Shown here: one piece after another, positions 1 through 13,641 of the stretch
Position numbering within the stretch: the stretch's first letter is position 1
Layout: each line of letters starts with the position of its first letter
Assembly (NCBI GenBank): GCA_030620915.1
Contig: JAUXIR010000007.1
Coordinates: 1 to 13,641 of the forward strand
Direction: 5' to 3'
DNA: 13,641 nucleotides
Source of the DNA: Geopsychrobacter sp.
GTDB taxonomy: Bacteria > Desulfobacterota > Desulfuromonadia > Desulfuromonadales > Geopsychrobacteraceae
The notes under the pieces: generated by a model
What the model was told of the DNA's origin: nothing
Databases searched by the model: none
What the model saw: only the letters and a program-made list of their open reading frames with translations
Position numbers and translations under genes: made by a program

Positions 1-522
1 GCACATGGCGTTTGTAGTGTCGGGACCCAGCTTAAGCAATTTGGGGTTGGCGGCATTTCGTCCATCAGACGTCTCAACCCCATGTGGATCATGGCAACGC
101 GCGCAGGAGACCCTTGCACCAGCATAGTTGGAGCGACCGTAAAAAAGCGGGTTGATTGGTGCGCGAGCACCTGCCGCCTGATTTGTATCGGAAGCGGCCC
201 AGTCATGCGAAGTCTGATCAACAGGGATTTCGCCCTGAGCAGTTACGGATCCCATTGCATCACTGGCATCACCCTTGATGAATGTGGAATTCCCGATGGT
301 ATTGGTGTTACCCGGCCCAGTCAGTAAAAGCGGAAAGGACTGCCCACTCTGGCCCGGTGTATGACAATCGAGACAGAGGATCGAACCTACCGAATCGAGA
401 TTGGCACCAGCCTTATGGCACAAGTCGCAGGAAATGTCATGAACCCTACGGGCCGCAACCATCGACGGAATCGCCATTAATACTATTAGGGCAATAATGG
501 GTACCAGGGTCTTCAATTTCAT
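1..522 (-). CDS. Secreted multiheme c-type cytochrome, 3' end beyond window
   Basis: This gene reads leftwards and leaves the window after 174 codons. The ATG at 522 has a GGGAG ribosome site 7 bases upstream. Residues 1-24 form a signal peptide (hydrophobic core at about 5-22, likely cut after VAA), so the protein should be periplasmic or extracellular. Three complete CxxCH heme motifs are visible: C32-H36, C50-H54 and C140-H144. The last codon in the window is Cys, after a KLLKLGP stretch that in related cytochromes often precedes another heme motif, so at least one more heme is likely. The third motif reads CARCHDPHG, the paired CH...PH form common in doubled-CxxCH cytochromes. It starts 60 bp after the tetraheme gene ends and is probably in the same transcript. 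A role in extracellular electron transfer is inferred from context; I cannot assign a named family member. Confidence 0.9.
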   Translation of the reverse strand, partial: MKLKTLVPIIALIVLMAIPSMVAARRVHDISCDLCHKAGANLDSVGSILCLDCHTPGQSGQSFPLLLTGPGNTNTIGNSTFIKGDASDAMGSVTAQGEIPVDQTSHDWAASDTNQAAGARAPINPLFYGRSNYAGARVSCARCHDPHGVETSDGRNAANPKLLKLGPDTTNAMC

Positions 523-582
523 CAGCTTACTCCCAAGGGAACATCGGCACGTATAAAAAACCGCAAAACCAGAGTCATGGAA

Positions 583-1326
583 TTACTTAATGTGACAGCT
601 TAAACAGAGGTCGCTTCCAGTGTTTGGAATCGCCCAAAACGGTGTATACTCAGGTGCGGCAAAGTAGTCGACATGTGGATCGTGACAGGTCGCACATTCA
701 ACGTTCTTTGCGGCGCCGCCAAAGAGCGTAAGGCTATTGCCTTCTACTGTGGCAACGTCCTGCAATTTGGACGTATCGGCAGCATAGACCGCCTGGTAAC
801 TAAAGGAGATCGGGTGATCGTCACGCAGGTCGGTGGTATCGGCCGTATTGGCACTTGAACCACCGATTCGCGGACCCGGATTACCGAAACCGCCCACAAT
901 TTTAACGCCAGAGTTACTAGGAATACCGGTTGCGGGGTTATTAATAATATCGCCGACGCCGAGACTGCCGTCGTGACAGGAAAGACAGAGCAGCGATTCG
1001 GTATTGATCTCACGGTTAGTGGCAATCCCTAGAGTCGCCATGACCGCACCAGAGTAGCTCTGATAATGACCGACACCTTGAAGCGTCGAGCTGTCACGGT
1101 TCCAGAGTGGCGCATCCAGATTCCCACCGTGGGGGGTATGGCAGTAGATGCAGATTTGATCTTCTGACGCATTCCAAGCCGCATAAACATACAAACTATC
1201 AGCTGGATAAGATAAGTACGAAAGATTGTGTGGCGTATTCTTAATGTTTGCAGTACCGGTGCCAGCAAATGCCGAACCGACACTCAGCAGAAGAACCACA
1301 ATCAGAAGAATGCTTTTTTTATTCAC
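583..1326 (-). CDS. Tetraheme c-type cytochrome, OmcE-like in size and motif layout
   Basis: A 247-residue exported cytochrome. The start codon is GTG, with AAAGGG 8 bases upstream. A signal peptide covers residues 1-21 (cut after AFA). Four heme motifs are present: CIYCH (59-63), CLSCH (114-118), CATCH (211-215) and CLSCH (241-245), the last one almost at the C-terminus. Besides the four proximal histidines there are five others (H33, H66, H87, H171, H218), enough for bis-histidine ligation of all four hemes. The layout (an N-terminal PHNLS, CxYCHTPH, APLWNR, CLSCHDG, a DDHP motif, CATCHDPH and a terminal CLSCH) matches, as I recall it, the widespread tetraheme family that includes the Geobacter filament cytochrome OmcE. 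The fold and polymerisation are inferred, not shown. It lies between the propeller-protein gene (76-bp gap) and another cytochrome (60-bp gap), suggesting one operon under the upstream sigma-54 promoter. Confidence 0.9.
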   Translation of the reverse strand: MNKKSILLIVVLLLSVGSAFAGTGTANIKNTPHNLSYLSYPADSLYVYAAWNASEDQICIYCHTPHGGNLDAPLWNRDSSTLQGVGHYQSYSGAVMATLGIATNREINTESLLCLSCHDGSLGVGDIINNPATGIPSNSGVKIVGGFGNPGPRIGGSSANTADTTDLRDDHPISFSYQAVYAADTSKLQDVATVEGNSLTLFGGAAKNVECATCHDPHVDYFAAPEYTPFWAIPNTGSDLCLSCHIK

Positions 1327-1402
1327 GAAGGAAACCCTTTCCCTGTCCTGAACTTTAGTTAGAACTACAGGTCAACTAATTCGATTTGATGCCTGTTGTT
1401 TT

Positions 1403-4192
1403 TTACTGCAGAATCCCGATAAATTCAGCCACGGCAATACCGGCGAAACTGTCAGCACCGAGCAGATCAACCAATTGCCCTGCCTTTATCAAAGCCGAGC
1501 CATACTTGCCACCTTCGATCCGTTTGACGATATTCGCAAGTCGCGAGAGCAACTCGGGAGCCTGATCGAGAACCAGCGGCTCAACATCGGCAAGCTTTGT
1601 CAGTAAGGCTTCCTTATATGCCGGAGCGAAACCACCCTGCTGACCGTTGGCGACAACGAGAGTACCAGTGTTGGTACCGTAGACCAAGTCGAAATAGTTG
1701 CTGCCAGCAAAGTTCAGAGCGAAGACACGCTCAGCGCCAGCAACCGACAGACCGGTGCTGGTCGTGGCAGTCACAACATCACCGCTGATCTCTGTCCGAA
1801 AGAGCTCGCCCTCGATGAGCAACATCAACTCACGACTGCCGTCAGCACTCCAGTCACTGAACATCGGGACGGCGGGAGCGGTCAGTGTCGCCATGACAGT
1901 CTCAAGACCAATACTAGGAGCGGAGTCGGTTCCGACATTGGCAAACAACAGAAGCTCGAGACCAGATGCAACAACAAGATCCTTAGCACCATCACCATTG
2001 ACATCGCCAACTACCGGAACGGCCTGAGAGTTAACCGTGACCAACCATTGAGGTACCGCTGAGAAACTCAATCCACCCTGCCCGCTGAACAGTTGAACCT
2101 TGCCATCGGCACCACCGACCAGCAAATCAAGCTTATCGTCGTTGTCCCAGTCAACCAGACAGGGAGCAGCACCGGCAATCGGCGGAATTTCAAGCTGCTG
2201 CGGAGCGGTCGCGAAGACAACCCGGTCAGTTTCTACCTTGCTTACGCTCAGATCTTCAATGGTGTCTGCCGCTAGAGGATCCAGGACCAAAGACCCTTTG
2301 TAGAAGTTGATATATCCATCGTCGGCCAAGAGCAGGTCAAGAATACCATCCCGATCAAGGTCAGCAACGGCTGGTGCGACGCCAACCCCCTGCACCGCCT
2401 GCCCGACAAGACGCAGTCCATGAACAGCGAAACTGGTTGCCAGGCGGGCGCCTTTCAATCCAGCGACGACATCTGTCTGTGCATCCTTAATAATATCAAC
2501 CGTCATAACGTAAGGCTCGAAACCGGCTGCTTCGACTACAAGCGCGTAACTGCCTTCGGCCAGGCCGCGGATCTCAACCGGCGCAGTCCCGACAAGGCGT
2601 CCGGCATAACCATGATGTCCACTCAGATATACCGAGGAACCCGGTACATTTGCAGAAACCCTGAGAACTGAAGCCTGAAAAACAAGGCTGCCGCTGCTCG
2701 CTGAAGTCGTCTCCAGCGCAGTGTTATCAACCGCAACAACCTTCCAGCTGTATGTCGCACCCGGCGTCAGCGCAGCGGAAAGATCTGTGATGGGAGCGCT
2801 GAGAGCGGCATAGGTCGAACTTGCCACGACAGAAGCACCTTCAGAAATTTCGACGCGGTAGTTGACGCTAGGGTTGGGGTCGGCATCGCTTGAGCCAGCC
2901 CAGCTCAGAATGGCGTCGCTGCCGGCATCTTCCCCGCCCAGAAAGGAGGTCAGAACCGGAGCACTCGGAGCTTCCTCAACGACATTTACATAAAAGGCCT
3001 GCGGAGAGGACCAGGCAGAGGTTGCCTGGCCATCATCGGCCCGAACCTGCCAGGTGTAGCTTGCGTTTTCATCCAGACTTAAATCCACAATTGCCGTAGT
3101 CTGGTTAACCCCTTCAGCAACGGAGAAGCTGGTGACCTGGGTGGCCCCAGCAAGAACCTGAACATCGTAGGTCAGAGTGTCGCTTTCAGCATCCGTGGAG
3201 TTATTGAAGATCAGACCGGGGGTAAGGCTTGAGACCTCACCCAAAGTAACCGGGACCGGGACAGATGGAGGGTTATTGATCTCAACAGGGATACTGCCAT
3301 TATCAATGGCATAGATATCGACCCGGGCATCACCATAAAGTACATAAAGGAGACTATTGTCCGCGTCAAAGGCCATAGAACCAGGATGATTAACTGAACC
3401 AAATCCATAGTTGAGCAGTGGCGCATTGGTCATGACATCCATGACCCGGATAGTCCCTTGGTTAAAATCAGAGACATAGTAATAATCAGCATCATCGAAG
3501 GCAACGGCACCAAAGTCAAACAAAGCAGTACCGAACCCGCTGCTCGCCGCAATACTGTTCTGCAGTACACCGCCAGTGTCATAGACATAGAGCGTCGGAA
3601 CAATCCCGGCAGCTTCATCAATATTATCATTGACAATATAGACCAGGTTACTGGCGGGATCTATCGAAAGGCCAATACCGCCGCTAAACCGCTGGACAGG
3701 AAAAACCGACCCGACGAGACCGTCGGGACCAAACACCTTGATCCGGCCCGCCGTCTGATCCACAACATAGATATTACCATTGACATCAAAATCGATCGCG
3801 CCAGCAAACAAGAATTCACCAGGACCCTGACCAAGATAACCAGTCAAGGTGCCTGCAGCATCCAGAATAGCGACCGCATCACCGGCAGACACATAAACCC
3901 TGCCGCCAGCTGCGACCGCAAGACCGGCACCCGAGACCTGCGCCCCAGAAAATACGCCAACCTTAGTGCCATAGCTATCGAACTTGAACACCGCATGAGC
4001 ACGACAGTCAGCAACATACAGGTTTCCATCGGAATCAAGATCGATCATCGTCGGACCCCGCAAACCTTCGCTGATCTGCCCCACGGGAACGATCGGTGGC
4101 GCAGCTAATGCGACGGCCGGGCTGAGCCATATCACCCCGAACAACAGCGATATCACCGCAAGCAGGCAGAGGTTGATGCAGGACCGAGTCAT
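1403..4192 (-). CDS. Secreted double beta-propeller protein (NHL, Fn3-like, PEGA, FG-GAP/VCBS)
   Basis: A 929-residue exported protein with a near-ideal AGGAGG ribosome site 7 bases before its ATG. Residues 1-30 are a signal peptide (cut after ALA). Residues 35-300 carry NHL-type propeller blades with repeated DxDGNxYVAD and GNIYVVD signatures. Residues about 308-405 and 410-505 are two Fn3-like domains (TYDVQV...YTWQVRADD; NYRVEIS...YSWKVVAVD). Residues 510-580 look like a PEGA domain (VYLSG...G-AP-EIRGL-EGSYALVVEAAGFEPY). Residues 600-850 hold FG-GAP/VCBS-type repeats with calcium-loop motifs: DLDRDG at 611, DWDNDD at 681, DVNGDG at 730, DWSADG at 780. A helical tail of about 60 residues ends the protein. 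No heme motif is seen. Its place directly upstream of two cytochromes suggests a surface scaffold, adhesin or assembly partner for them. The exact function is unknown. Confidence 0.9.
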   Translation of the reverse strand: MTRSCINLCLLAVISLLFGVIWLSPAVALAAPPIVPVGQISEGLRGPTMIDLDSDGNLYVADCRAHAVFKFDSYGTKVGVFSGAQVSGAGLAVAAGGRVYVSAGDAVAILDAAGTLTGYLGQGPGEFLFAGAIDFDVNGNIYVVDQTAGRIKVFGPDGLVGSVFPVQRFSGGIGLSIDPASNLVYIVNDNIDEAAGIVPTLYVYDTGGVLQNSIAASSGFGTALFDFGAVAFDDADYYYVSDFNQGTIRVMDVMTNAPLLNYGFGSVNHPGSMAFDADNSLLYVLYGDARVDIYAIDNGSIPVEINNPPSVPVPVTLGEVSSLTPGLIFNNSTDAESDTLTYDVQVLAGATQVTSFSVAEGVNQTTAIVDLSLDENASYTWQVRADDGQATSAWSSPQAFYVNVVEEAPSAPVLTSFLGGEDAGSDAILSWAGSSDADPNPSVNYRVEISEGASVVASSTYAALSAPITDLSAALTPGATYSWKVVAVDNTALETTSASSGSLVFQASVLRVSANVPGSSVYLSGHHGYAGRLVGTAPVEIRGLAEGSYALVVEAAGFEPYVMTVDIIKDAQTDVVAGLKGARLATSFAVHGLRLVGQAVQGVGVAPAVADLDRDGILDLLLADDGYINFYKGSLVLDPLAADTIEDLSVSKVETDRVVFATAPQQLEIPPIAGAAPCLVDWDNDDKLDLLVGGADGKVQLFSGQGGLSFSAVPQWLVTVNSQAVPVVGDVNGDGAKDLVVASGLELLLFANVGTDSAPSIGLETVMATLTAPAVPMFSDWSADGSRELMLLIEGELFRTEISGDVVTATTSTGLSVAGAERVFALNFAGSNYFDLVYGTNTGTLVVANGQQGGFAPAYKEALLTKLADVEPLVLDQAPELLSRLANIVKRIEGGKYGSALIKAGQLVDLLGADSFAGIAVAEFIGILQ

Positions 4193-4221
4193 AGTGTTGC
4201 CTCCTGAAAATAAAGAGTCGC

Positions 4222-4236
4222 AGGCTTTTTGAGCCT
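4222..4236 (-). other. Small stem-loop in the 5' leader of the propeller-protein mRNA
   Basis: The sequence AGGCT-CAAAA-AGCCT forms a 5-bp stem with a 5-base loop. It would lie about 30 bases into the leader transcribed from the sigma-54 promoter, before the ribosome site. The stem is short, so it may have no function. Confidence 0.3.
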
Positions 4237-4275
4237 AGGCACCCTTGAGCGTAAACTTATTCTAAAGGCATTACC

Positions 4276-4292
4276 TGCAAAGATGGTACCAG
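4276..4292 (-). promoter_or_regulatory. Sigma-54 (-24/-12) promoter for the propeller-cytochrome operon
   Basis: The minus strand reads TGGTAC-N5-TTGCA, with exactly 10 bases between the GG and the GC. It agrees with the consensus TGGCAC-N5-TTGCA except for one T in the -24 box. The predicted start of transcription is near 4265, giving a leader of roughly 73 bases before the ATG at 4192. The gene immediately upstream encodes a sigma-54 activator, which supports the call. Confidence 0.8.
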
Positions 4293-4335
4293 CAACAAAC
4301 AGCTCAAAAAAGCGACATGACCCACGCAAACCAAT

Positions 4336-4362
4336 GGCCGTTGCTCATCGGTCACAACGGCC
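4336..4362. promoter_or_regulatory. Dyad upstream of the sigma-54 promoter, candidate activator site
   Basis: A perfect inverted repeat GGCCGTTG-N11-CAACGGCC has half-site centres 19 bp apart, about two helical turns. It is centred near -84 from the predicted start, in the range usual for enhancer-binding activators. It also lies 40-66 bp after the regulator's stop codon and could be read as a terminator stem, but no T-run follows on the minus strand, so I favour an operator. Confidence 0.5.
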
Positions 4363-4401
4363 GCCTAGCTGGCATAAAACTAAATTATGAGTCGTGCTAT
4401 C

Positions 4402-5769
4402 TTACAAAAACTTGAACTTTTTCATCCGGTAGCGAAAGGCATCGATCCCCAGATTCAGCTTTTTCGCGGCCTTCGACTGGTTCCCATCAGAGGTCTCGAG
4501 GGACTGTCTTATCAACTCGCGTTCCACGTCTTCGATATCGATCCCCTCGGCCGGCAGGGTAAAGATAAGCGGACTGCCGCCGGCGGGCACGGTACGCGAC
4601 ACCAGTTCGCGCGGCAGATGTTCATACTCCATGGTTTCGGCGTTTTCGAGAATAACCGCGCGCTCGATGACGTTGCGCAATTCGCGAATATTTCCCGGCC
4701 AGTCGTAATCGACCAGGACTTTTTCGGCCTCCGCCGATATCTGCCGGACATCCTTGCCGAACTCCCGATTGAAGGATTCGATGAAATGTCGCGCCAGGGT
4801 CAGAATGTCATCCCGGCGTTCGCGCAACGGCGGCAGAAAAATCGGGATAACCTGCAGACGATAATAGAGGTCACTGCGGAAGACCTTTTGCTCAATCGCT
4901 TCCAACAGATCGCAGTTGGTGGCCGAAACGATACGGATATCGACATGAATGTCCTTGACGCCGCCGACGCGACGGAAGGTGCGGTCCTCAAGCACGCGCA
5001 GCAGTTTGGCCTGGATCGCCATCGGCATATCGCCGACCTCATCGAGAAACACGGTGCCACCATGGGCCATCTCGAAGAGGCCCTTTTTCTGGGCCTTGGC
5101 ATCGGTAAAGGCCCCTTTTTCATGGCCCATCAGCTCGCTTTCGAGCAGGGTCTCGGGAACCGCGGCGCAGTTAATCGCCATGAACGGCTTATCGGCACGT
5201 GCTCCCTCGTAATGAATCGCCTTAGCGATCAACTCCTTACCGGTGCCACTCTCCCCTTGAATCAGTACGGTTCCGGCACCACTCAGGGCAATCTTGCGCA
5301 CCATGTTCAATACATGGTGCAGATCGGCGCTGTCGCCAATAATGCTGTCGATACTGAAACGCTTCGGCTGCACCGCACGCAGCTGAGCAACCTCACGCTT
5401 AAGCTCGCGTGTTTCGAGGGCCTTATTGATCACGATGGCAAGCTCATCGAGATTGAATGGCTTATTGATGTAATCGTAGGCGCCAAGGCGCATCGCCTTG
5501 ACCGCCGTTTCAAGCACCCCAAGGGCGGTAACCATGATCACGACCACATCCTCTTCGAGTTCCTTGACCTTCTCAAGGACCTCCAGGCCGTTCATCCCCG
5601 GCAACTGAATATCGAGCAGCATCAGATCGGGAGTCTCTTCCTGCAGCAAACGCAGAGCATCCTCACCAGACCCTGCGGTACTGACCTCGTAGCCTTGTTT
5701 CTTCAGGTTCTGCTCAAGAGACCAGCGAATCAGATGCTCGTCGTCGACAACCAGAATTTTATTTTTCAT
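4402..5769 (-). CDS. Sigma-54-dependent response regulator (NtrC family)
   Basis: A 455-residue activator in the usual three-part layout. I start it at the ATG at 5769 (MKNKILVVDD), which has AAGGAG 10 bases upstream; an ATG 15 codons earlier only adds a tail unlike the family. The receiver domain (1-120) has D9/D10, phosphoacceptor D53, T81 and K103. The AAA+ domain (about 138-385) has Walker A GESGTGKE at 172-179, the sigma-54-contact loop GAFTDA at 219-224 (a variant of GAFTGA that keeps the Phe-Thr), Walker B FLDEVGD at 241-247, arginine finger region FRSDLYYRL, and WPGNIREL at 357-364. A Fis-type helix-turn-helix fills 417-453. It probably drives the -24/-12 promoter just downstream of it, and perhaps the other sigma-54 sites in the window. 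Its partner kinase lies 52 bp upstream. Confidence 0.96.
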   Translation of the reverse strand: MKNKILVVDDEHLIRWSLEQNLKKQGYEVSTAGSGEDALRLLQEETPDLMLLDIQLPGMNGLEVLEKVKELEEDVVVIMVTALGVLETAVKAMRLGAYDYINKPFNLDELAIVINKALETRELKREVAQLRAVQPKRFSIDSIIGDSADLHHVLNMVRKIALSGAGTVLIQGESGTGKELIAKAIHYEGARADKPFMAINCAAVPETLLESELMGHEKGAFTDAKAQKKGLFEMAHGGTVFLDEVGDMPMAIQAKLLRVLEDRTFRRVGGVKDIHVDIRIVSATNCDLLEAIEQKVFRSDLYYRLQVIPIFLPPLRERRDDILTLARHFIESFNREFGKDVRQISAEAEKVLVDYDWPGNIRELRNVIERAVILENAETMEYEHLPRELVSRTVPAGGSPLIFTLPAEGIDIEDVERELIRQSLETSDGNQSKAAKKLNLGIDAFRYRMKKFKFL

Positions 5770-5821
5770 ATGACAGTTTCTCCTTATTCCTGCACGGAAG
5801 AGACATCCTCCCAAGGTTCAT

Positions 5822-7297
5822 TCACGTTTGGGGACAGTTATCCAGCACCGGCAGAAGCAGGGAAAATTCTGCCCCCTTACCGAGCCCACTCTCAACCTCA
5901 AGGCTTCCGCCGTTATTCTCCATTAATTGCCGACAGATCGGCAACCCAAGTCCAGTGCCTTGAGTCTTGGTCGTATAGAAGGGCGTAAATATCTTGGCCA
6001 GCACCTCCGGCGTGATCCCCGGTCCGGTGTCAGAAATGCGGATCCTCACCCAGGCCCTTCCGTCACGCTGGATCTGGTCGGTCACGACGGTCAACATGCC
6101 GCCTTCGGTCATGGCCTGCACAGCATTGAGTGCGATATTGAGAATCACCTGCTGGATCTGCTTGACATCGATCCAGACCGCCGGCAATTCACGCGTCATC
6201 TCGTCGACACGGTTGATATTTTTAGATTCGGGGTGCTGGGCCACGAAAAGCAGGGTCTGCTTGAGCAGGTCATTGATGTCGGCGAAGGCAAACTCAGGCT
6301 GGCCGGGCTTACCGAAATAGAGCAGGTCATTGACCGTCTTATCGAGGCGACCGATCTGGCTCTGGATCTGCAGCATGATCTCACGGCGCTGATCGCCTTC
6401 CGGGTAATCGTCGGAAAGAACGCTGATCGCGCCGCTGATTCCAGCCAGCGGGTTCTTGATTTCATGGGCCAGGCCTGCAGCCATCTCCCCGACCGAAGCA
6501 AGACGGTCAACCCGCTCCATCTGCTGATAATGGTATTGCTCAAGTTCGTTCTGCGCGCGGGAGAGATTGCCGACCATCGCATTGAAGCCGTCCATCAACT
6601 GACCGATCTCATCATTCTGCACCGGAGTCATGCGGACCGTCAGATCGCCATCCTCGACCTGAGCCATGCACTGAGTGATTTTTTCCAACGGGCGACGCAA
6701 AAAGCGGATCATCACGACCGAAATCCCGGCCGCGAGGAATCCGAGGATGATCAGGGTAGAAACCATAAACAGCTGACTGGTCTCACGCAACTGCAGATAC
6801 ATCTCGGCCAACGAGAAGTCCATATTGAGCACGCCGATAACCTTGCGACCAGTCCCATGACAACGAAAGCAGCGCTCATCGGAGACGATCGGGCGCACCA
6901 TCGCCAGCACTCGCCCACCACCTTGAGCCTGAAATACCCCCTCTGAAACCTTTCCGGTAAAAAGGGAAAAATCGCGCCGATCGACATGTGTGCCGATTTC
7001 ATTCGGATCAGCCGAGGTCAGAATAATCCCGTCGGGATTGAATATTCGCACCCCGGTGATCCCATGTCCGCGGCCGACGGTTTCGAGAATCGCCTGCACT
7101 TCAGACGTGTTACCAAGGCGCATCGAGTTAAAGATCGACTTCTCGATGGTCCCAAGCAACATATTGGCGTGGTGGCGGGTGGTCCCGATCAGATGGGCCT
7201 GCTCGCGGTAAAGGTGGAAGAGGGTAAAGATACCAACACCGAGGGCGAGCAGCAGCACATTGAATAGAATAATGCGGCTGATCAGACTTCTAAACAT
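5822..7297 (-). CDS. Membrane sensor histidine kinase with a periplasmic heme c motif
   Basis: A 491-residue kinase; the ATG has GGAGGG 5 bases upstream. Transmembrane helices at about 9-29 and 174-197 enclose a periplasmic sensor region of some 145 residues. That region contains CFRCH at 143-147, a motif for covalent heme c, just before the second helix. A HAMP linker (about 198-250) leads to the HisKA domain with H278 in HEIKNP, and to an ATPase domain with N-box at 387-394, DTGPGI at 423-428, FTPFYTTK and GTGLGL. All catalytic motifs look intact. Heme-bearing periplasmic sensors of this kind are known in Geobacter and relatives. Redox state or a heme ligand is therefore the likely signal, although this is inferred. 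It is the first gene of the kinase-regulator pair. In the 136-bp gap upstream of it I see no clear promoter. Confidence 0.95.
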   Translation of the reverse strand: MFRSLISRIILFNVLLLALGVGIFTLFHLYREQAHLIGTTRHHANMLLGTIEKSIFNSMRLGNTSEVQAILETVGRGHGITGVRIFNPDGIILTSADPNEIGTHVDRRDFSLFTGKVSEGVFQAQGGGRVLAMVRPIVSDERCFRCHGTGRKVIGVLNMDFSLAEMYLQLRETSQLFMVSTLIILGFLAAGISVVMIRFLRRPLEKITQCMAQVEDGDLTVRMTPVQNDEIGQLMDGFNAMVGNLSRAQNELEQYHYQQMERVDRLASVGEMAAGLAHEIKNPLAGISGAISVLSDDYPEGDQRREIMLQIQSQIGRLDKTVNDLLYFGKPGQPEFAFADINDLLKQTLLFVAQHPESKNINRVDEMTRELPAVWIDVKQIQQVILNIALNAVQAMTEGGMLTVVTDQIQRDGRAWVRIRISDTGPGITPEVLAKIFTPFYTTKTQGTGLGLPICRQLMENNGGSLEVESGLGKGAEFSLLLPVLDNCPQT

Positions 7298-7433: not shown

Positions 7434-8015
7434 CTACTGACTGCCGCCAGCGGGCGGCTGTCCTGTGCCAGCGGGCGGCTGTCCCGCGGCAGTTATTTTC
7501 TTCTTCGGCAGGTAGATGAACTCCCATTCGCTATAGAGTCCGCGGCCTTCAAATTCTTTATTTTCTGTCGAGAAATTGCCCTGTTTGAAGGGTTCTCCCT
7601 TAGATGACGAGCGCACCCCCTTGATCCGGCCGGCCGGATCCTTGATCAATTCCCAGTCCCCGCCGGTCATCGGATCGACATAAGGGCGGCGCAGATGCCT
7701 CTTGGTCTGCAGAGAACGGGGATCTTTCAGCAGATATTCCAATTTAGAGGGGTAGATTTTCGCGGCGCCAGCGGCGCCCTGACCGTGAGAAGACTGGTAC
7801 TAGGAGCCGATTGCAGCACGGATCTGCCCCCCCTTCCAGAGGAGATCGGCCTCGCGCGCGCGGCGGGTCAGACTACTCCAGGTCGAACCGGCAATCCCTG
7901 CCGAGAGTCCAAGAATCGTCATCAGCACCAGCACCAGCACCAGCGTCACGCCAGATTCGCCTTTGAGCGGTTTCAGAGCGGGAGAAACGGGGATATTCGA
8001 CTCAACTTTTTTCAT
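7434..8015 (-). pseudogene. Pilin-like/type II secretion pseudopilin gene with in-frame amber codon
   Basis: One reading frame of 193 codons plus stop spans this region but holds a TAG at codon 72 (7798-7800). The first part has a prepilin-type leader (cut probably after SG, about residue 22) and the hydrophobic helix VTLVLVLVLMTILG; the usual Glu at mature position 5 is absent. The part after TAG continues the same family pattern: YPSKLEYLLKDPR, HLRRPYVDPMTGG and WEFIYLP, which I recognise from GspG-like proteins of Geobacter relatives. Family members usually have a Tyr pair at the TAG site (GSYY), so TAC or TAT to TAG is the simplest change. The downstream part has no plausible start of its own. 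The start overlaps the upstream gene by 14 bases. It is either a real nonsense mutation, a sequence error or suppressed. Confidence 0.75.
7446..7484 (-). repeat. Tandem repeat in the C-terminal tail of the pilin-like gene
   Basis: Two identical 18-base copies (7446-7463 and 7467-7484) lie 21 bases apart, in frame. They encode two GQPPAG units at the end of the protein, after the family core, and look like a recent slippage or duplication product. Confidence 0.85.
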
Positions 8016-8571
8016 CGCCCCCCGTCAGGTAGGAGAAAATCAAGTCATCCAGCGCCACGGAGATATCCTGCTGTAGATTTCGGTCCTCGGCGCTCGGCGG
8101 CTCATACGCGGGTTCAATGGCAACCAGAAGATCATCGCCACGGGTCGCGTCAACGGACGAACTATCAAGGCTCTCAATCTCAGCCGCAGGCAGAGACTCT
8201 GTAGCGGTTTCAATATCCTGCGGTCGGACATCTACGATCACATCAGCTGTGTCTGCTGCGGGAATCGCGCTCGCTTTCGCTGGCCGACAGGATTCAATTT
8301 CGATTCCGAGTTCGCAAATCCGCCGGTCGAATTCCCCCTTGGTCAGACGCCGCAGCATCCCCTTGTGTTGTTCCTTGGCGAGGTCTTCAACCACCTGACT
8401 GAGATTGTCCACATCGAGGATATCGGCATAGGAGGTCTTCTGCGACGAGACGATAATTCCGCCATGATAGAGCAGAGTCGCCAGGCTCGGGCTCTTAAGA
8501 CCACTATCCTCGGTCTGGACGTGAAATCCGACCCCCTGATATAAGATATTGTGATTAAACCCAACTATCAT
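8002..8571 (-). CDS. Conserved hypothetical protein with acidic C-terminal half
   Basis: A 189-residue soluble protein without signal peptide or membrane helix. Residues 1-85 look like the conserved part: MIVGFNHNI, FHVQTED, a LLYHGG...TSYADIL stretch and a helical segment KEQHKGMLRRL. I recall this opening from uncharacterised delta-proteobacterial proteins, but no function is known to me. Residues 95-165 are low in complexity, rich in Ala, Asp, Glu and Ser, and probably disordered. A short predicted helix (about 166-183) ends it. The ATG at 8571 has only a weak GGGGA site. Its end overlaps the pilin-like gene in a different frame, implying translational coupling and perhaps a link to the secretion or pilus apparatus. 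Confidence 0.75.
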   Translation of the reverse strand: MIVGFNHNILYQGVGFHVQTEDSGLKSPSLATLLYHGGIIVSSQKTSYADILDVDNLSQVVEDLAKEQHKGMLRRLTKGEFDRRICELGIEIESCRPAKASAIPAADTADVIVDVRPQDIETATESLPAAEIESLDSSSVDATRGDDLLVAIEPAYEPPSAEDRNLQQDISVALDDLIFSYLTGGDEKS

Positions 8572-8662: not shown

Positions 8663-9277
8663 TTATTCTTCCGCGACCCCGGGGATGGCTTTACCATTGG
8701 TAACAGTTGGCAAAGAGGCATCCTCATCTCGCGCATCCGGGACATAGCTGTAGCGAAATTCAGCCTTGATCGGTCGGGAGATATCGACATGCCCCTTGAG
8801 GGTCGGTTCAATCTTGCCCTCGATCAGGATCTGCAGACGGCGCAGGTACGGGAAATTGACTGCCAGGGTGTTTGTCAGCCCATAGACCGTCAGCAACTCA
8901 GAGAGACTGCCACCGGGATGTCTGTTCACCAGTTCGCGACTGAAATTAATCCGCGCCAGGTCCCCTTCAACTTCGACTCCCAGCACGCGGGTGCGGGCGG
9001 GGAGAACGGGTTGAAGCCGTTGCGACCCGGTGGCTAGCGCTTCAATAGTCTGCGCGATGCATTGTCGCTCGTCATTGCAACCCGCAATCTGCTGTTCTTC
9101 GGAAACCAGAGAAAAACCGGCAGGATCAACGAAGTAGAGCACGATATCACGTGGCTCAGGACTCAACTGCTGCACTACGACATCCCCGGGCAGAGATTGG
9201 CGCGAAGGCCAGACCGCCCAAAGAACCGATCCCAAAATAAGAGCCAAAATCCCAATCAATAAAATAAATCTGTTCAT
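8663..9277 (-). CDS. Membrane-anchored GerMN-domain protein
   Basis: A 204-residue protein with one N-terminal hydrophobic helix (residues 4-23) that acts as an anchor or uncleaved signal. Residues about 45-165 match the GerMN domain pattern: an opening strand DIVLYFVDP, a segment ending AIEAL-type helix, then GVEVEGDLARINFS, GGSLSELLTVYGLTNTL and a strand RRLQILIEGK. GerMN domains are extracytoplasmic and thought to bind cell-wall or protein partners. The family is not confined to spore formers, and nothing here suggests sporulation. A Cys pair (C67, C73) could form a disulfide outside the membrane. Its start lies 25 bp after murI ends, so the two probably share a transcript, as I recall for Geobacter genomes. 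Confidence 0.85.
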   Translation of the reverse strand: MNRFILLIGILALILGSVLWAVWPSRQSLPGDVVVQQLSPEPRDIVLYFVDPAGFSLVSEEQQIAGCNDERQCIAQTIEALATGSQRLQPVLPARTRVLGVEVEGDLARINFSRELVNRHPGGSLSELLTVYGLTNTLAVNFPYLRRLQILIEGKIEPTLKGHVDISRPIKAEFRYSYVPDARDEDASLPTVTNGKAIPGVAEE

Positions 9278-9302
9278 CCTGAAAAGACCACTCTCATCCT
9301 AT

Positions 9303-10097
9303 TCATCCGATGTGAACCTGTTCGACAGATTGAAATTCTGCCCCAAGAAAACCCATGCCGATCCGGCGGAACCGGGTTGGCACATCGGTCACAAAAAAAC
9401 GTTGTCCGCCTGTTCCTTCCTCAGCGGCCAGTTCAGCACGTTCCAATAGCTCAACCACCTCAAGCGCCGTGGCTGCTGCCGAATCGACCAGCTTCATCCC
9501 TGGACCGACCGCCACCCGAATCGCCCCTTCAAGCAAGGGGTAATGGGTACAACCCAGCACCAGCGTATCGATTTTTTCGGCCAACAGCGGGGCAAGGTAC
9601 TCAGCGGCAACCTGTCGGGCAACCGAATGATCGGCCCAGCCCTCTTCAGCTAAAGGGACAAAGAGCGGGCAGGCCGCTGAAAAAACGGCAGTATCTGGAG
9701 CAAGGTTAAGGAGTGCCTGCCGATAAGAATCACTATTAATCGTGCCCTCTGTCCCCACGACACCAATTCGGTGGCCACCACTGGCAACTGCGGCACGCGC
9801 ACCGGGTTCAAGAACCCCGATCACCGGCAGATTGAATCTGTCGCGCAACTGCGGCAGAGCTACGGCTGAAGCGGTGTTACAGGCCACCACCAGCAGTTTA
9901 ATTCCCTGCGCACAAAGAAACTCCGCAGATTCAAGTGCATACTGGGTCACCGTGGCCGGACTTTTCGTTCCATAGGGAACCCGCGCCGTATCGCCAAGGT
10001 AGAGCAACTGCTCTTTTGGCAAAAGCCGGATCAACTCACGACAGACCGTCAGCCCCCCGACCCCGGAATCGAATACCCCAATCGCCTGATGTTGCAT
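9303..10097 (-). CDS. murI: Glutamate racemase
   Basis: Converts L-glutamate to D-glutamate for peptidoglycan, without cofactor, in the cytoplasm. From the chosen ATG at 10097 the protein has 264 residues, the normal length. FDSGVGG begins at residue 9. The catalytic cysteines lie in ACNTAS (C73) and GCTHYPLL (C183). YLGDTARVPYGTKS at 33-46 is the family's substrate loop. An in-frame ATG 23 codons upstream is possible, but it adds residues unlike the family and has no ribosome site; the chosen start has a GGAG 13 bases away, which is rather far. It is divergent from the plus-strand gene at 10313 and is followed closely by the GerMN gene. Confidence 0.96.
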   Translation of the reverse strand: MQHQAIGVFDSGVGGLTVCRELIRLLPKEQLLYLGDTARVPYGTKSPATVTQYALESAEFLCAQGIKLLVVACNTASAVALPQLRDRFNLPVIGVLEPGARAAVASGGHRIGVVGTEGTINSDSYRQALLNLAPDTAVFSAACPLFVPLAEEGWADHSVARQVAAEYLAPLLAEKIDTLVLGCTHYPLLEGAIRVAVGPGMKLVDSAAATALEVVELLERAELAAEEGTGGQRFFVTDVPTRFRRIGMGFLGAEFQSVEQVHIG

Positions 10098-10193
10098 AGT
10101 AATAGAATTTCTCCGGGACACAGCCTCAGGCTGCCAGCCACTCGATAAGATAGATAAGGTGGTCATCGTATATAAGCCGTTGATTGAAGTAAA

Positions 10194-10222
10194 GATTTAG
10201 CACTCCCCCCCCCCCCTTTCAA
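10194..10222 (-). promoter_or_regulatory. Possible murI promoter containing a C12/G12 tract in its spacer
   Basis: On the minus strand TTGAAA (10222-10217) and TGC-TAAATC (-10 box 10199-10194) are 17 bases apart, and 12 of those 17 are G (10205-10216). The -10 box is weak (3 of 6) but has a TGn extension. This is a weak call that rests mainly on spacing and position. The rest of the 145-bp divergent gap (10167-10312) shows a TTGACT at 10260 facing the plus-strand gene, without a convincing -10 partner. Confidence 0.35.
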
Positions 10223-10312
10223 CTTCCTTAAAAACCTGTTAATCTCACGCCATTACAGTTTGACTCGATTAGAATTGGCCGAGGAATTCTATTTACAAAA
10301 AACGGAGGGAAA

Positions 10313-10645
10313 ATGAACTGGCAGGGATTTCTTGATTTCATGATCAACTTCCGTACGGATCGGATCATGGAACAACTGACGGCTTGGAACGTCGGAGACC
10401 TGGCTCACAACCACTACGTATTGGGAAGCTTCGCGCTGGCGATTGCCACCACCTATTTTCTCGGCTGGAAAACAATTTCTGGATTCATAGTCGGGATCGG
10501 TGGTTTCACCTATGCGGTCTCCTATGCTGTCGCTGAAGGGACAGGCCCCGAAGGACTCTCCGGCACCGGCATCTGGGTCCTGATTGGCGGTGGAGGGGCG
10601 GCGGTCATGCTATTTATCTTCCTGATTTTTGTCCGCTCTGAGTAG
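10313..10645 (+). CDS. Small membrane protein of unknown function
   Basis: A 110-residue protein with an excellent ribosome site (GGAGGG, 4 bases before the ATG). A soluble N-terminal part of about 33 residues (with DRIMEQLTAWNVGDLAHNHY) is followed by three hydrophobic stretches, about 36-51, 53-73 and 86-107. The last two are glycine-rich. I do not recognise a named family. There is no heme, iron-sulfur or nucleotide motif, although H32 and H34 sit at a membrane edge where they could bind metal or heme. It is first of three small plus-strand genes, the second of which is a membrane-anchored cytochrome, so a part in membrane electron transfer is possible but unproven. Confidence 0.85.
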   Translation: MNWQGFLDFMINFRTDRIMEQLTAWNVGDLAHNHYVLGSFALAIATTYFLGWKTISGFIVGIGGFTYAVSYAVAEGTGPEGLSGTGIWVLIGGGGAAVMLFIFLIFVRSE

Positions 10646-10651
10646 CTCAGC

Positions 10652-10667
10652 CGGCACGACACTTGAC
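10652..10667 (+). promoter_or_regulatory. Sigma-54-like promoter with variant -12 box, before the diheme cytochrome
   Basis: CGGCACG-N4-TTGAC has a full -24 box. The GG is 10 bases from GA, where GC is expected. It would start transcription near 10678, about 54 bases before the cytochrome start. The changed -12 dinucleotide makes this a tentative call. The same TTGACC could instead be a sigma-70 -35 box. Confidence 0.35.
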
Positions 10668-10731
10668 CCGTACAGACAACCTAAGCCAGAATAGGTTCTT
10701 CGTTTAGCGACCATGTAAGCAAGGAGATTTT

Positions 10732-10995
10732 ATTAAAAAACGTGACATTCTGGTTCTGCTTGGAGGGGTTATCATCGTGATCATCCTCTGGATGGCCCCG
10801 GCAGAAACCACGAAACATATCCCCCAGGATGAAACGCACCAGAAATTCTATTCCCTGGTACAGAAGGATGGCAAAGCAGGCAAAAAAGCCGCTGAGAAGT
10901 TCTGTCAGAACTGCCACAATGAAGACCAGATCCCCTTCCCCGCAGATCATCCGCCCAAACTTCGCTGTATGTTTTGCCATAAACTCGACAAGTAA
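10732..10995 (+). CDS. Membrane-anchored diheme c-type cytochrome, apparent ATT start
   Basis: An 87-residue protein if started at the ATT at 10732, which has AAGGAG 5 bases upstream. Residues 2-4 (KKR) followed by a hydrophobic run at 6-22 form a signal anchor. The first ordinary start codon in frame, GTG at 10777, has a possible GGAGG site too, but it would remove most of the anchor and leave the protein without an export signal. Two heme motifs follow: CQNCH (58-62) and CMFCH (79-83). H26-type spacing and H29, H36 and H73 offer possible distal ligands. I recall similar small diheme proteins in Geobacter relatives, usually starting with ATG. A periplasm-facing electron carrier is likely; its partner is unknown. 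Confidence 0.8.
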   Translation: MKKRDILVLLGGVIIVIILWMAPAETTKHIPQDETHQKFYSLVQKDGKAGKKAAEKFCQNCHNEDQIPFPADHPPKLRCMFCHKLDK

Positions 10996-11011
10996 ATGAG
11001 TCGCCAAAAGA

Positions 11012-11052
11012 CCAACAAGGCCGCCACCTGACAAGGGTGGCGACCTTGTTGG
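11012..11052. terminator. Long imperfect hairpin after the diheme cytochrome
   Basis: A 9-bp arm (11012-11020 with 11044-11052), one mismatch, and a 7-bp arm (11022-11028 with 11036-11042) enclose a 7-base loop. It begins 17 bases after the cytochrome stop. No T-run follows on the plus strand, so it may act as a factor-dependent terminator or mRNA-stabilising structure that separates the cytochrome from the 38-codon gene. Confidence 0.5.
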
Positions 11053-11077
11053 CCCCTGCAACAAAGGCCTAAGCTGC

Positions 11078-11089
11078 TGAATTAATTCA
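11078..11089. promoter_or_regulatory. 12-bp perfect palindrome upstream of a sigma-54 promoter
   Basis: TGAATTAATTCA is centred about 65 bp before the predicted transcription start of the 38-codon gene. It could be an activator or repressor site, but it is AT-rich and short enough to arise by chance. Confidence 0.25.
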
Positions 11090-11122
11090 ATCCATCGCCC
11101 AACAATGCCCGAAATCTCATTC

Positions 11123-11138
11123 CGGCACTCCTTTTGCA
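11123..11138 (+). promoter_or_regulatory. Sigma-54 (-24/-12) promoter for the 38-codon gene
   Basis: CGGCAC-N5-TTGCA has exactly 10 bases between GG and GC and matches the consensus at all but the first base. The predicted start is near 11149, giving a leader of about 39 bases that contains the AAGGAGG ribosome site. Confidence 0.7.
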
Positions 11139-11187
11139 ACAGTCTTAATGCAGTCTATTGAGTCCTGCCTAAGGAGGCTTGTTACAG

Positions 11188-11304
11188 ATGCCAATTACAT
11201 CGCAACCCAAAAACCGCACCACTCTCGACTACCTGCTTTACGTTATGGCTGGAGCGGTCATCGCGACCCTCTTTTTTAGCACCTTGCTCTGGCTGAGCTT
11301 TTAA
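11188..11304 (+). CDS. 38-residue single-pass membrane peptide
   Basis: A short gene with a strong AAGGAGG (11171-11177) 10 bases before its ATG and a TAA stop. The product has a polar N-terminus of about 15 residues (MPITSQPKNRTTLDY) and one hydrophobic helix, residues 16-38, ending LLWLSF. I recognise no family. The ribosome site, the sigma-54 promoter in front and the clean single-helix composition support a real gene despite its length. Small membrane peptides often modulate a larger membrane complex or transporter; which one is not evident here. It might serve the same system as the preceding membrane protein and diheme cytochrome, but a hairpin and its own promoter separate it from them. 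Confidence 0.65.
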   Translation: MPITSQPKNRTTLDYLLYVMAGAVIATLFFSTLLWLSF

Positions 11305-11333
11305 AATAAGTCCCCCCCGTGCCCACCAAATAG

Positions 11334-11365
11334 AAAAAAAGGCCGCGACACCTAAGCCGCGGCCT
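11334..11365 (-). terminator. Intrinsic terminator of the nrd operon
   Basis: On the minus strand an 8-bp stem AGGCCGCG/CGCGGCCT with a 10-base loop is followed by seven T residues (11340-11334). It lies about 73 bp after the nrdG stop. The 133-bp gap between the two convergent genes holds this terminator and a C7 run, and otherwise nothing I can identify. Confidence 0.85.
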
Positions 11366-11437
11366 CAACAATCCCTCCCGGACATTCTACTCAACCACAA
11401 GATAATTGTACCAACCACGCCCTTCAACTTGCTCAGC

Positions 11438-12100
11438 CTAGGACTCGGCAACCTGCCGCAGTCGCGTAAATTCCGCTGCAGGATAAGCCTGCCGTGGGGC
11501 ACCACCCAGCATCTGTTCGCGTGGGACAAATTGCTGCAGCACCCAGCGACGAGCGCCCTTGATCACTTCGCCCATCACATGCAACTCATCTTCCGTGACT
11601 AAACCAGGGACGCAGGTTGTGCGAAATTCGTATTCAGGTGCCTGCTCAATCGCTAATCGACAACTGGCCAACAGAGCAGCGGTATCGACTGGCCGGTCAT
11701 GGAGCTCGGCGTAGCGTGCCGGGGAGGTCTTGAAATCAAGCGCCAGGTAATCGACCAACCTTCGCTCGAACAATCCAGTCAAGACCCGCGGCAACAAACC
11801 GTTGCTGTCGAGCTTAACCTGCAGGCCAAGCTCTTTGATCTGCTCGAGAAACCCAGCCAGACCGGTCGCCAGAGTCGGCTCGCCACCCGAGACCACAACC
11901 CCGTCGATAAATGATCTGCGCTGCTTCAGCTCATCGAGCAGTTCATCAAGCGGGTAATCGGGATACTGATCCGGATCGAGAACAAGGCCCGGATTATGAC
12001 AAAAGCCACAGCTCAGGTTGCACCCCCCGGTAAAAACCAGCGAAGAGACCCGCCCGGGAAAATCGAGCAGGCTGGTCCCCTGAAACCCCTTGATCCGCAA
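11438..12100 (-). CDS. nrdG: Anaerobic ribonucleotide reductase activating protein (radical SAM)
   Basis: A 220-residue radical SAM enzyme that would use a [4Fe-4S] cluster and S-adenosylmethionine to create the glycyl radical on class III ribonucleotide reductase. The cluster motif is CNLSCGFC (C27, C31, C34) followed by HNP. SGGEPT lies at 71-76 and a DSNG strand at 98-101. The start is TTG, placed by alignment of MRIKGFQGTSLLDFPG with the usual NrdG opening; no ATG lies nearby. Only 5 bases separate it from the glycyl-radical gene's stop, and its GAAGGG ribosome site overlaps that stop, so translation is probably coupled. It is the last gene of the operon. Confidence 0.93.
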   Translation of the reverse strand: MRIKGFQGTSLLDFPGRVSSLVFTGGCNLSCGFCHNPGLVLDPDQYPDYPLDELLDELKQRRSFIDGVVVSGGEPTLATGLAGFLEQIKELGLQVKLDSNGLLPRVLTGLFERRLVDYLALDFKTSPARYAELHDRPVDTAALLASCRLAIEQAPEYEFRTTCVPGLVTEDELHVMGEVIKGARRWVLQQFVPREQMLGGAPRQAYPAAEFTRLRQVAES

Positions 12101-12105
12101 GCCCT

Positions 12106-12249
12106 TCAGCCCTTCCGTTCTTTGGCGACAATGTACTCCGAGCGCTCACGAAATTCTTCCTTTTTGCCTCGATTCCACTGCTGAACCGGGCGAAAGAAAC
12201 CACAAACCCGTGAGTACACCTCTGTTTTTGCATTACATCTGGTTGACAT
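12106..12249 (-). CDS. Stand-alone glycyl-radical domain of class III ribonucleotide reductase
   Basis: A 47-residue product with GGGAGG 8 bases before its ATG. It contains VYSRVCGFFRPVQQWNRGKK, the end of NrdD where the stable radical sits; by comparison with the RVCGY motif of E. coli NrdD, G17 is the radical site. C5 and C16 are its only cysteines. In most bacteria this segment is fused to the end of the catalytic subunit, but here it is encoded separately, in the same frame, after three in-frame TGA codons. It presumably docks on NrdD and is activated by NrdG, much as the GrcA protein does for pyruvate formate-lyase. I recall short proteins of this type in Geobacter relatives, but cannot check that. 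Confidence 0.85.
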   Translation of the reverse strand: MSTRCNAKTEVYSRVCGFFRPVQQWNRGKKEEFRERSEYIVAKERKG

Positions 12250-12274
12250 TGATCATCCTCCCTCTCATGAAGTT

Positions 12275-12292
12275 ACCGGGCCTTGGCCCGGT
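12275..12292. other. Palindromic hairpin at the nrdD stop codon
   Basis: ACCGGGCC-TT-GGCCCGGT is a perfect 18-base palindrome that can fold as a 7-bp stem with a 4-base loop. On the minus strand it begins at the last base of the nrdD stop codon and ends 25 bases before the start of the glycyl-radical gene. It may tune the ratio of the two products or stabilise the mRNA. No T-run follows. Confidence 0.6.
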
Positions 12293-13641
12293 CAAGCCGC
12301 CTTCCCATCCTGGTGATGGGGGCAGGCAAAATGTTCGCCGGCGATGTAACCATGCTCCGGACAGATCGTAAATGTCGGACTCAGGGTGAAATACGGCAGA
12401 TGAAAATTTTCGGCGATCCGTCGAACCAGCAGTCGCGCACCGCGCCAATCTTCGAGCCGCTCACCCAGGAATCCGTGAAATACGGTGCCGCCGGTATAAA
12501 GGGTCTGCAGACTGTCCTGATGCTGCAGCGCCGAGAAGATCTCCTCCGTGGCTCCGACCGGCAACTGGGTCGAATTGGTGTAATAAGGCTCGTCAGTCCC
12601 CGCGGTGATAATATCGGGGAAGCGTGTACGGTCGCGGCTGGCCAGCCGATAGCTGGTCCCCTCGGCCGGAGTTGCCTCCAGGTTATAGAGGTGCCCGCTC
12701 TCCTCCTGAAAGGCCTCAAGTTGCTTGCGCATGAAATCGAGGGTCGCTTTCGCCAGCGCCTGTCCTTCGTCACTGTCGATACCGGTGCCGATCAGGTTGA
12801 GGCAGGCCTCATTCATGCCGATCAAGCCGATGGTCGAGAAGTGGTTCCCCCAGTAATGGCCGGTGCGTTCGCGGATGCCCGCCAGATAAAACTTGCTGTA
12901 GGGATAGAGTCCCTCTTCGGTGAAGCGTTCGAGCTGCTTGCGCTTGAGCTCCAGCGATTCGTACGCAAGCTTCATCAGGCGACCGATTCGCTCGAAGAAA
13001 TCGGTCATGCTATCGGTAACATAGGCCGCGCGCGGCAGATTGATGGTCACCACGCCGATCGATCCGGTCAGCGGATTGGAGCCGAACAGACCGCCTCCGC
13101 GGCGGCGCAGCTCGCGATTATCGAGCCGCAGGCGGCAACACATCGAGCGGGCATCCTCGGGATCCATGTCGGAGTTCATGAAATTGCTGAAATAGGGGAT
13201 GCCGTAGCGGGCGGTCATCTCCCAGATCGGCTCGAAACGTGGGTCCTCCCAATCGAAACCGACGGTAATGTTATAGGTCGGGATCGGGAAGGAGAAGATG
13301 CGCCCCGATGAATCCCCCGCCATCATCACCTCACAGAAGGCACGATTCAAGAGGTCCATCTCGTCCTGAAACTCGCTATAGGTGCGATCCTGCAGTTCGC
13401 CGCCTAAGATGACCGCCTCGTGCGCCATATTCTTCGGCACCATCATGTCCATGGTGATATTGGTGAAGGGGGTCTGAAAGCCGACGCGAGTCGGCACATT
13501 CATATTGAAAACAAACTCCTGCATGCACTGCTTGATTTCAGCGAAACTGAGGCCATCATGTGCGTTGAAGGGTGCGAGCAGGGTGTCGAAATTGGCGAAG
13601 GCCTGAGCCCCGGCGGCTTCGCCCTGCAGGGTGTAGAAGAA
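12292..13641 (-). CDS. nrdD: Anaerobic (class III) ribonucleoside-triphosphate reductase, 5' end beyond window
   Basis: The frame is open to the right edge, so only the last 449 residues are seen. They match the catalytic barrel of NrdD: NMNVPTRVGFQTPFTNIT, FPIPTYNIT, ARSMCCRLRLD (the CC pair is at partial residues 168-169 and probably includes the substrate-radical cysteine), GSIGVVTINLPR and YYTNSTQLPVG. The enzyme reduces ribonucleoside triphosphates to deoxy forms without oxygen. Near the end CPEH (427-430) and CPHH (440-443) recall the zinc site that normally precedes the radical domain, here as CX2H pairs. The protein then stops six residues later without the glycyl-radical motif, which is encoded by the next gene. 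The upstream promoter, and any NrdR box, lie outside the window. Confidence 0.94.
   Translation of the reverse strand, partial: FFYTLQGEAAGAQAFANFDTLLAPFNAHDGLSFAEIKQCMQEFVFNMNVPTRVGFQTPFTNITMDMMVPKNMAHEAVILGGELQDRTYSEFQDEMDLLNRAFCEVMMAGDSSGRIFSFPIPTYNITVGFDWEDPRFEPIWEMTARYGIPYFSNFMNSDMDPEDARSMCCRLRLDNRELRRRGGGLFGSNPLTGSIGVVTINLPRAAYVTDSMTDFFERIGRLMKLAYESLELKRKQLERFTEEGLYPYSKFYLAGIRERTGHYWGNHFSTIGLIGMNEACLNLIGTGIDSDEGQALAKATLDFMRKQLEAFQEESGHLYNLEATPAEGTSYRLASRDRTRFPDIITAGTDEPYYTNSTQLPVGATEEIFSALQHQDSLQTLYTGGTVFHGFLGERLEDWRGARLLVRRIAENFHLPYFTLSPTFTICPEHGYIAGEHFACPHHQDGKAA

Follow-up and report, generated by a model that had tools for sequence, protein, structure and literature searches.

A left-truncated Geopsychrobacter locus combining an OmcE-type tetraheme cytochrome, its propeller partner and a giant multiheme cytochrome, with a possible role in extracellular electron transfer

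The closest described counterparts of the locus considered here are those of the cytochrome filaments of Geobacter sulfurreducens. In OmcE as in OmcS, neighboring subunits are linked by a histidine that one of them contributes as ligand to a heme of the next (PMC9473688). The published gene tables for the omcS operon (GSU2507-GSU2493) list the kinase GSU2507, of 621 amino acids (aa), the sigma-54 regulator GSU2506, GSU2505, entered there only as hypothetical, omcS and omcT (PMC10599522, PMC11077965), and work on omcS describes an eight-gene secretion block (PMC12977616). For Geoalkalibacter ferrihydriticus there is mention of a locus in which NHL proteins adjoin an OmcE homologue (PMC12016550), and NHL genes beside cytochromes are reported for Desulfovibrio ferrophilus (PMC9769857). 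Among very large cytochromes, the genome paper of 'Desulfuromonas soudanensis' WTL gives DSOUD_0664 69 hemes and a predicted extracellular location, and a review calls it unclear what purpose 69 hemes would serve in one protein and whether the full number is incorporated (PMC7096707). Here we analyze a cytochrome locus of Geopsychrobacter sp. on a window of 13,641 bases, which is the whole of contig C328 of a 2.04-Mb metagenome-assembled genome (MAG) that is 70% complete.

We read the window as carrying a left-cut copy of a conserved Desulfuromonadales extracellular electron-transfer locus, with the filament, giant-layer and heme-sensor roles set out below, and give this reading a probability of about 0.55. 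By sequence, the set consists of a heme-c sensor kinase, a regulator, a promoter, a double-propeller protein, an OmcE-type tetraheme cytochrome and a giant cytochrome, the last with 71-75 heme motifs in five relatives. All five genes lie on the minus strand, and base 1, the contig end, falls inside the last of them:

5822..7297, minus strand: sensor histidine kinase with the c-heme motif CFRCH in a Cache/Mcp40H-20-type sensor domain, and HAMP, HisKA and HATPase domains (Pfam)
4402..5769, minus strand: NtrC-type sigma-54 response regulator (Pfam), its start placed by homologue comparison in an open reading frame (ORF) that is open from a TTG at 5814
4291-4276, minus strand: sigma-54 -24/-12 promoter TGGTACCATCTTTGCA, of the form TGGTAC-N5-TTGCA, scoring 10 of 11
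1403..4192, minus strand: secreted 929-aa protein with an NHL propeller, Ig-like domain(s), PEGA and an FG-GAP propeller (Pfam, over cut-offs)
583..1326, minus strand: OmcE-type tetraheme c-type cytochrome of 247 aa with a GTG start, a candidate filament subunit (sequence, profile and fold)
1..522, minus strand: N-terminal 174 residues of a giant multiheme cytochrome, with three complete CXXCH and cut inside the fourth heme motif (homology)

A preliminary description of this DNA, made from its letters, had taken the five co-directional genes as one unit; the common direction stands, while the single unit is better split into a kinase-regulator pair and a sigma-54 operon. Its heme-sensing kinase, sigma-54 regulator and sigma-54 promoter are borne out by Pfam, the CFRCH motif and the site score, as are its secreted double-propeller protein (NHL and FG-GAP matches over the cut-offs) and its further multiheme cytochrome, with three complete CXXCH before the contig end. 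Both the giant size of that cytochrome and a second giant found in relatives escaped it, the contig ending too early to show them.

The filament formation, electron flow and regulation that we infer for this locus would proceed as follows. The heme of the kinase would sense the periplasmic redox or ligand state, and the kinase, acting via the regulator and sigma-54, would turn the cytochrome operon on. Exported copies of the tetraheme protein would stack head-to-tail as an OmcE-like filament, with a heme of each subunit ligated by a histidine of its neighbor, and the propeller protein, as a dedicated partner, would help to export, anchor or assemble the filament. As for the giant cytochromes, they may make up a heme-dense layer at the surface, feeding, storing or distributing the electrons that pass between cell and filaments.

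Comparison with related genomes shows that the gene set is kept. The tetraheme protein has a match at E<=1e-5 in 37 of 60 related genomes, and gene order was read at 20 places picked among the best-scoring of 31 loci. In 17 of the 20, the tetraheme gene is immediately preceded by the propeller gene in the same orientation; within these 17 loci, kinase and regulator come before the propeller gene in 12, and a homologue of the window's last gene follows the tetraheme gene in 15. The contig of L038 begins only with the propeller gene, and at L048-L050 the set is not shown, L049 having a weak propeller match before an OmcE-type domain. The order kinase, regulator, propeller, tetraheme protein extends to Geothermobacter hydrogeniphilus, Pelotalea chapellei, Pelobacter sp. 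GS8 and a Geobacteraceae MAG. Loss of the gene order in relatives, named in the preliminary description as evidence that would speak against it, did not occur, and chance gene order is rejected.

The OmcE-type assignment of the tetraheme protein, proposed at the outset, is borne out by sequence, fold and ligand histidines. A PDB sequence search (E<=1) returned two matches only, OmcE (7tfs, 2.2e-25) and 9yuq (4.4e-20), the record of the latter naming a 'putative multiheme cytochrome c' with 16 chains. The homology to OmcE is full-length, residues 12-232 of 7tfs aligning to residues 14-247 of the query, which shares its four CXXCH. A 113-sequence profile finds OmcE at E 1.1e-56 and touches OmcS over 27 profile positions only; with this match and four hemes, the protein is not a hexaheme OmcS-family subunit. 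A second structure model (pLDDT 77.6, pTM 0.77) matches only the OmcE nanowire (Foldseek/VIA), 7tfs being the sole cytochrome listed in the structure library search, so that the absence of others is no evidence against other folds. A soluble periplasmic cytochrome c3/c7 was considered and rejected: the PDB search at E<=1 gave no such match, and the Pfam c7/c3 matches fall below cut-off. Grouping with soluble periplasmic cytochromes, which would have told against the preliminary proposal, did not appear in the PDB sequence and fold searches (the tree described below held none).

Inspection of the alignments further shows eight candidate ligand histidines at the OmcE positions, kept in 28 of 28 closer relatives (27 distinct) and in 112-113 of 113 wider ones. 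By analogy with OmcE, the four conserved histidines outside the motifs would be the distal heme ligands. One of them, H33, precedes the first heme motif by a long stretch, and we would guess that it is the residue ligating the heme of the neighboring subunit. The N-terminus of the protein is, by eye, hydrophobic and signal-like. In a midpoint-rooted tree of 124 rows (122 different, 100 unlabelled, no periplasmic cytochrome included), a well-supported branch (support 99/89) separates 22 proteins of this locus from OmcE, 9yuq and OmcE-type proteins of other phyla. This separation indicates an OmcE-superfamily member in a clade of its own, and not OmcE itself.

That separation also lends itself to a different account of the protein, which we regard as rather doubtful: it might not polymerize at all and instead be a small surface or periplasmic shuttle to or from the giants, which would then be the real conduit or electron store. 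The same would fit L162 and L180, which behind the same regulator pair keep propeller matches and 23-32-heme genes with no tetraheme match, and the presence of several OmcE-type genes per genome in relatives. However, H33 and the other three distal histidines persist in at least 112 of the 113 relatives, as expected if an OmcE-type, neighbor-supplied ligand were kept, and the sole fold match found is a filament subunit. As a separate observation, OmcE-type domains also occur in open frames of ~525-680 aa in eleven genomes (G008, G010, G016, G018, G020, G021, G036, G037, G045, G054 and G058), possibly as fused or two-domain OmcE relatives.

Support for a filament-related role of the propeller protein comes from its association with OmcE-type genes well outside this order. 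The protein, whose C-terminal part is without a Pfam match, finds 58 other proteins at E<=1e-3, ten of which align over 97-100% of the query at 52-60% identity. Using a profile hidden Markov model (HMM) that was seeded with the window's NHL propeller and extended over three rounds, we surveyed OmcE-type loci from a GTDB-wide scan, namely the best 80 of at least 513 confirmed relatives, to which the survey counts that follow refer; 3 of these lie at a contig edge and 11 are without a co-directional ORF of >=200 aa within 700 bases upstream. A propeller gene stands directly upstream of the OmcE-type gene in 59 of the 66 usable loci, across many phyla, as against 55 of 614 other ORFs of >=200 aa in the same loci (p 8e-45), with some of these 55 control propellers adjoining further OmcE-type genes. 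All ten of the upstream propellers checked in Pfam exceeded the NHL cut-off, and a loose pattern finds a lipobox-like motif in 29 of the 59. The partner has 320-470 aa in most phyla; a long form (~900-1,200 aa) is seen in 12 of the 59, all from Desulfuromonadales or Geobacteraceae relatives as judged by record name or kinship, and a short one in three Desulfuromonadales loci (L112, L118, L122). The second, FG-GAP propeller of the long form was seen in the window's protein. Closer relatives of OmcE show the same pairing: at L213 and L215 (45% and 41% identical to OmcE) an NHL protein, the tetraheme cytochrome and a ~747-aa ORF without a Pfam match follow in order. The partner of these OmcE relatives is an NHL protein of 365-394 aa, whereas that in the window is a two-propeller protein of ~930 aa; the window locus differs from the OmcE system also in the giant cytochromes downstream, its own sigma-54 promoter and the heme-sensor pair. 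Full-text literature yielded no statement of a general OmcE-propeller pairing or of a giant-bearing locus, the main OmcE-type filament papers lying outside the scope of that search, which is thus no proof of absence.

These data bear directly on the mixed architecture proposed in the preliminary description, whereby an OmcE-type cytochrome would have taken over an omcS-type neighborhood. As in the omcS operon, sensor kinase and sigma-54 regulator genes precede the filament cytochrome, and the order kinase, sigma-54 regulator, extra gene, cytochrome does resemble that tabulated for GSU2507-2504. To this extent the parallel fits, although GSU2505 is given only as hypothetical and the omcS kinase has 621 aa against 491 in the window. 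Further, the hexaheme subunit of the omcS operon is without full-length similarity to the window's four-heme protein, and an NHL propeller before an OmcE-type gene is the usual state in many phyla as well as beside the closer OmcE relatives at L213 and L215. The regulator also seems to be without an orthologue in six genomes of family f24, which we take to be Geobacteraceae: their best matches are 46-49% identical, versus 67-97% for the listed orthologues, and other f24 genomes do carry one. G. sulfurreducens itself was not recognized among the 277 genomes of the class that were screened, where the published omcE primer met a single genome, G156, with one mismatch and at a contig end. We accordingly hold the mixed architecture to be very improbable, and it is replaced by a general OmcE-propeller pairing with a lineage-specific giant-cytochrome extension.

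The extension concerns the window's last gene. A genome of the same genus encodes a protein of 2706 aa with 71 motifs, and the product of the window's gene matches its residues 1-167 at 60% identity. Judged by this homology, the window's gene is the N-terminus of a giant cytochrome family that includes the 69-motif protein of L040. Uncut giants in relatives have 1,600-4,000 aa and 34-62 CXXCH. That of L040, with 2794 aa and 58 CX2CH plus 11 CX3CH, shares its motif number, 69, with DSOUD_0664 and presumably is that protein. Five uncut giants of like length, from L033, L036, L038, L040 and L042 (71-75 motifs when CX4CH is counted), were aligned, leaving out the shorter ones of L039 and L051 and the longer ones of genomes G057 and G058. 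At pairwise identities of 35-68%, all five have 69 heme columns in common (the reference has 71 motifs), and 138 of 142 reference cysteines and 122 of 152 histidines are invariant, versus 12.2% of all other residues. Since 69 of 71 motifs are kept in five orthologues down to 35% identity, nearly every heme site appears to be under selection. Additionally, 52 invariant histidines lie outside the heme motifs, enough as far-side ligands for about three quarters of the hemes. A PDB sequence search with the giant gave no match at E<=0.1.

Behind the first giant, a second one is present in six of nine relatives read further (L182-L187), with 1,700-2,900 aa and 15-19 CXXCH; these are confined to the C-terminal part, the first motif falling at residue 717-1796 after a long heme-free N-terminal part. 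None is found at L189 and L190, and L188 ends with its contig. The heme-free part has no Pfam match in L182 and L183; in that of L187, MAM and GH115_C are matched above the Pfam cut-off, and the second giant of L182 has one weak Fn3-like match in the PDB (E 0.034). Two further large frames were noted: a third multiheme ORF behind the second giant at L187 (9574-14265, genome G055; 1563 aa, 21 CXXCH), and at L191 (1180-12009, genome G058) a giant gene of 3609 aa with 53 CXXCH about 7 kb behind a giant of 3789 aa with 55 CXXCH.

On the regulatory side, the kinase sensor domain matches Mcp40H-20 (PF21563) at 34.2 bits against a cut-off of 27, with the CFRCH inside it, and CXXCH is present in all 40 orthologue rows that score >400 bits and reach the N-terminus (two same-contig pairs, L036/L052 and L043/L056, being included). 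The domain is thus akin to the heme-c Cache/PAS sensors (Mcp40H-20_sensor) in passing the curated cut-off with a CXXCH, but it is here part of a histidine kinase, not of a chemotaxis transducer. The regulator likely starts at base 5769, the first ATG that fits the homologues and residue 16 of the ORF. At L040 (4479-5841) sigma-54 regulator matches occur in two frames, split at about residue 329/330, as a frameshift or sequencing error.

The promoter lies within the 209-base gap behind the regulator, its -12 element ~85 nt from the propeller start codon. Scores of >=9 are reached by 1.8% of shuffles of this gap and by five sites in the whole window on both strands, the 4291-4276 site included. 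In 23 of 24 compared regions (window included; L036 and L052 are one contig) the propeller gene has a site scoring >=9 in front of it, the sole miss, L038, being cut by the contig end. The conservation of this promoter speaks for a sigma-54-controlled operon. When the relatives' leaders are aligned, good agreement is confined to the promoter, the ribosome-binding site and the start, and a scan of the window and seven relatives for riboswitches found no bacterial Rfam family.

Whether the neighboring pair is what acts on this promoter is a separate matter; by its adjacency, the window's regulator would be the operon's activator. An orthologue of the regulator at E<=1e-190 is found in 162 of 277 genomes of the class, and 20 of its loci were picked, from complete genomes and from genomes in which it is detached. 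The kinase precedes the regulator in all 20. Behind it lie propeller matches and multiheme genes at L162, L163, L179 and L180, and a same-sized ORF and multiheme genes at L167; in 13 of the 20 no gene with >=3 CXXCH was seen within 9 kb (L173 being cut at ~4 kb). Because the genes behind the pair vary in this way, it may have roles beyond driving the cytochrome operon. The breadth of the regulator in the class, together with these 13 loci, could even mean that the pair is a general regulator and its place beside the operon incidental. We consider this unlikely: the pair is adjacent in 12 of the 17 loci and again in Geothermobacter, Pelotalea, a Pelobacter MAG and the Geobacteraceae MAG, and the sigma-54 site is nearly always found before the propeller gene, though also at L039, L046 and L047, where the regulator gene does not precede it and the pair is elsewhere. 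At L175 and L176, ~4-8 kb past the regulator, stand a 404-aa ORF, a 10-heme gene (281/273 aa, ~5 kb past it) and a 794/674-aa gene with 14/10 hemes and a lipoprotein-like start, a set that looks like a conduit of another type.

Several points weigh against the locus being a filament-forming electron-transfer unit of the kind proposed. To our knowledge, no filament has been seen for the clade of the tetraheme protein, and the 99/89 branch sets that clade apart from OmcE and 9yuq; polymerization is for both reasons a property carried over from a homologue. The first structure model, from 28 sequences, was too poor to use (pLDDT 46.8). Among the window genes scanned, Pfam gave no match to an outer-membrane barrel, and no further piece of either giant was found in the MAG, which is 70% complete. 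L044 and L045, two of the 17 loci, have no giant behind the tetraheme gene, and the complete giants of L039 and L051, outside the five-way comparison, have 44 and 41 motifs. The regulator pair occurs without cytochromes in many genomes and lies elsewhere in the genome in four of the 17 loci (L039, L041, L046, L047). Even of OmcE itself, PMC11077965 argues that wild-type cells have not yielded its filaments and that Fe(III) oxide can be reduced without them.

The rest of the window holds ordinary neighbors at 8663-13641, namely a GerMN-type protein, an Asp/Glu racemase, a radical-SAM enzyme and an anaerobic ribonucleotide reductase. Between these and the locus, a pilin-like or pseudopilin-like ORF (7434-8020, minus strand) has an in-frame stop that leaves a 102-aa remainder; its counterpart at L033 is open over 201 aa, and the stop represents either decay or an assembly error.

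No mechanism by which OmcE-type filaments leave the cell and are initiated is known to us, and a propeller gene that holds its place in front of the cytochrome gene across phyla offers a concrete candidate for the export or initiation partner. Tentatively, and with clearly less confidence than in our reading of the window itself, we suggest that across bacteria the upstream propeller is a dedicated partner which exports, anchors or starts OmcE-type nanowires, and that in Desulfuromonadales such filaments may plug into a single-chain 'bus bar' of ~70 hemes and a second giant that is possibly adhesin-like, the whole being switched by the heme sensor and sigma-54. For the giant, the locus supplies partners, a promoter and a candidate regulator, by which its role becomes testable. 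Tests of this locus are feasible in isolates, given that 'D. soudanensis' can be grown on electrodes and that a sediment fuel cell was the source of Geopsychrobacter electrodiphilus (PMC4914508).

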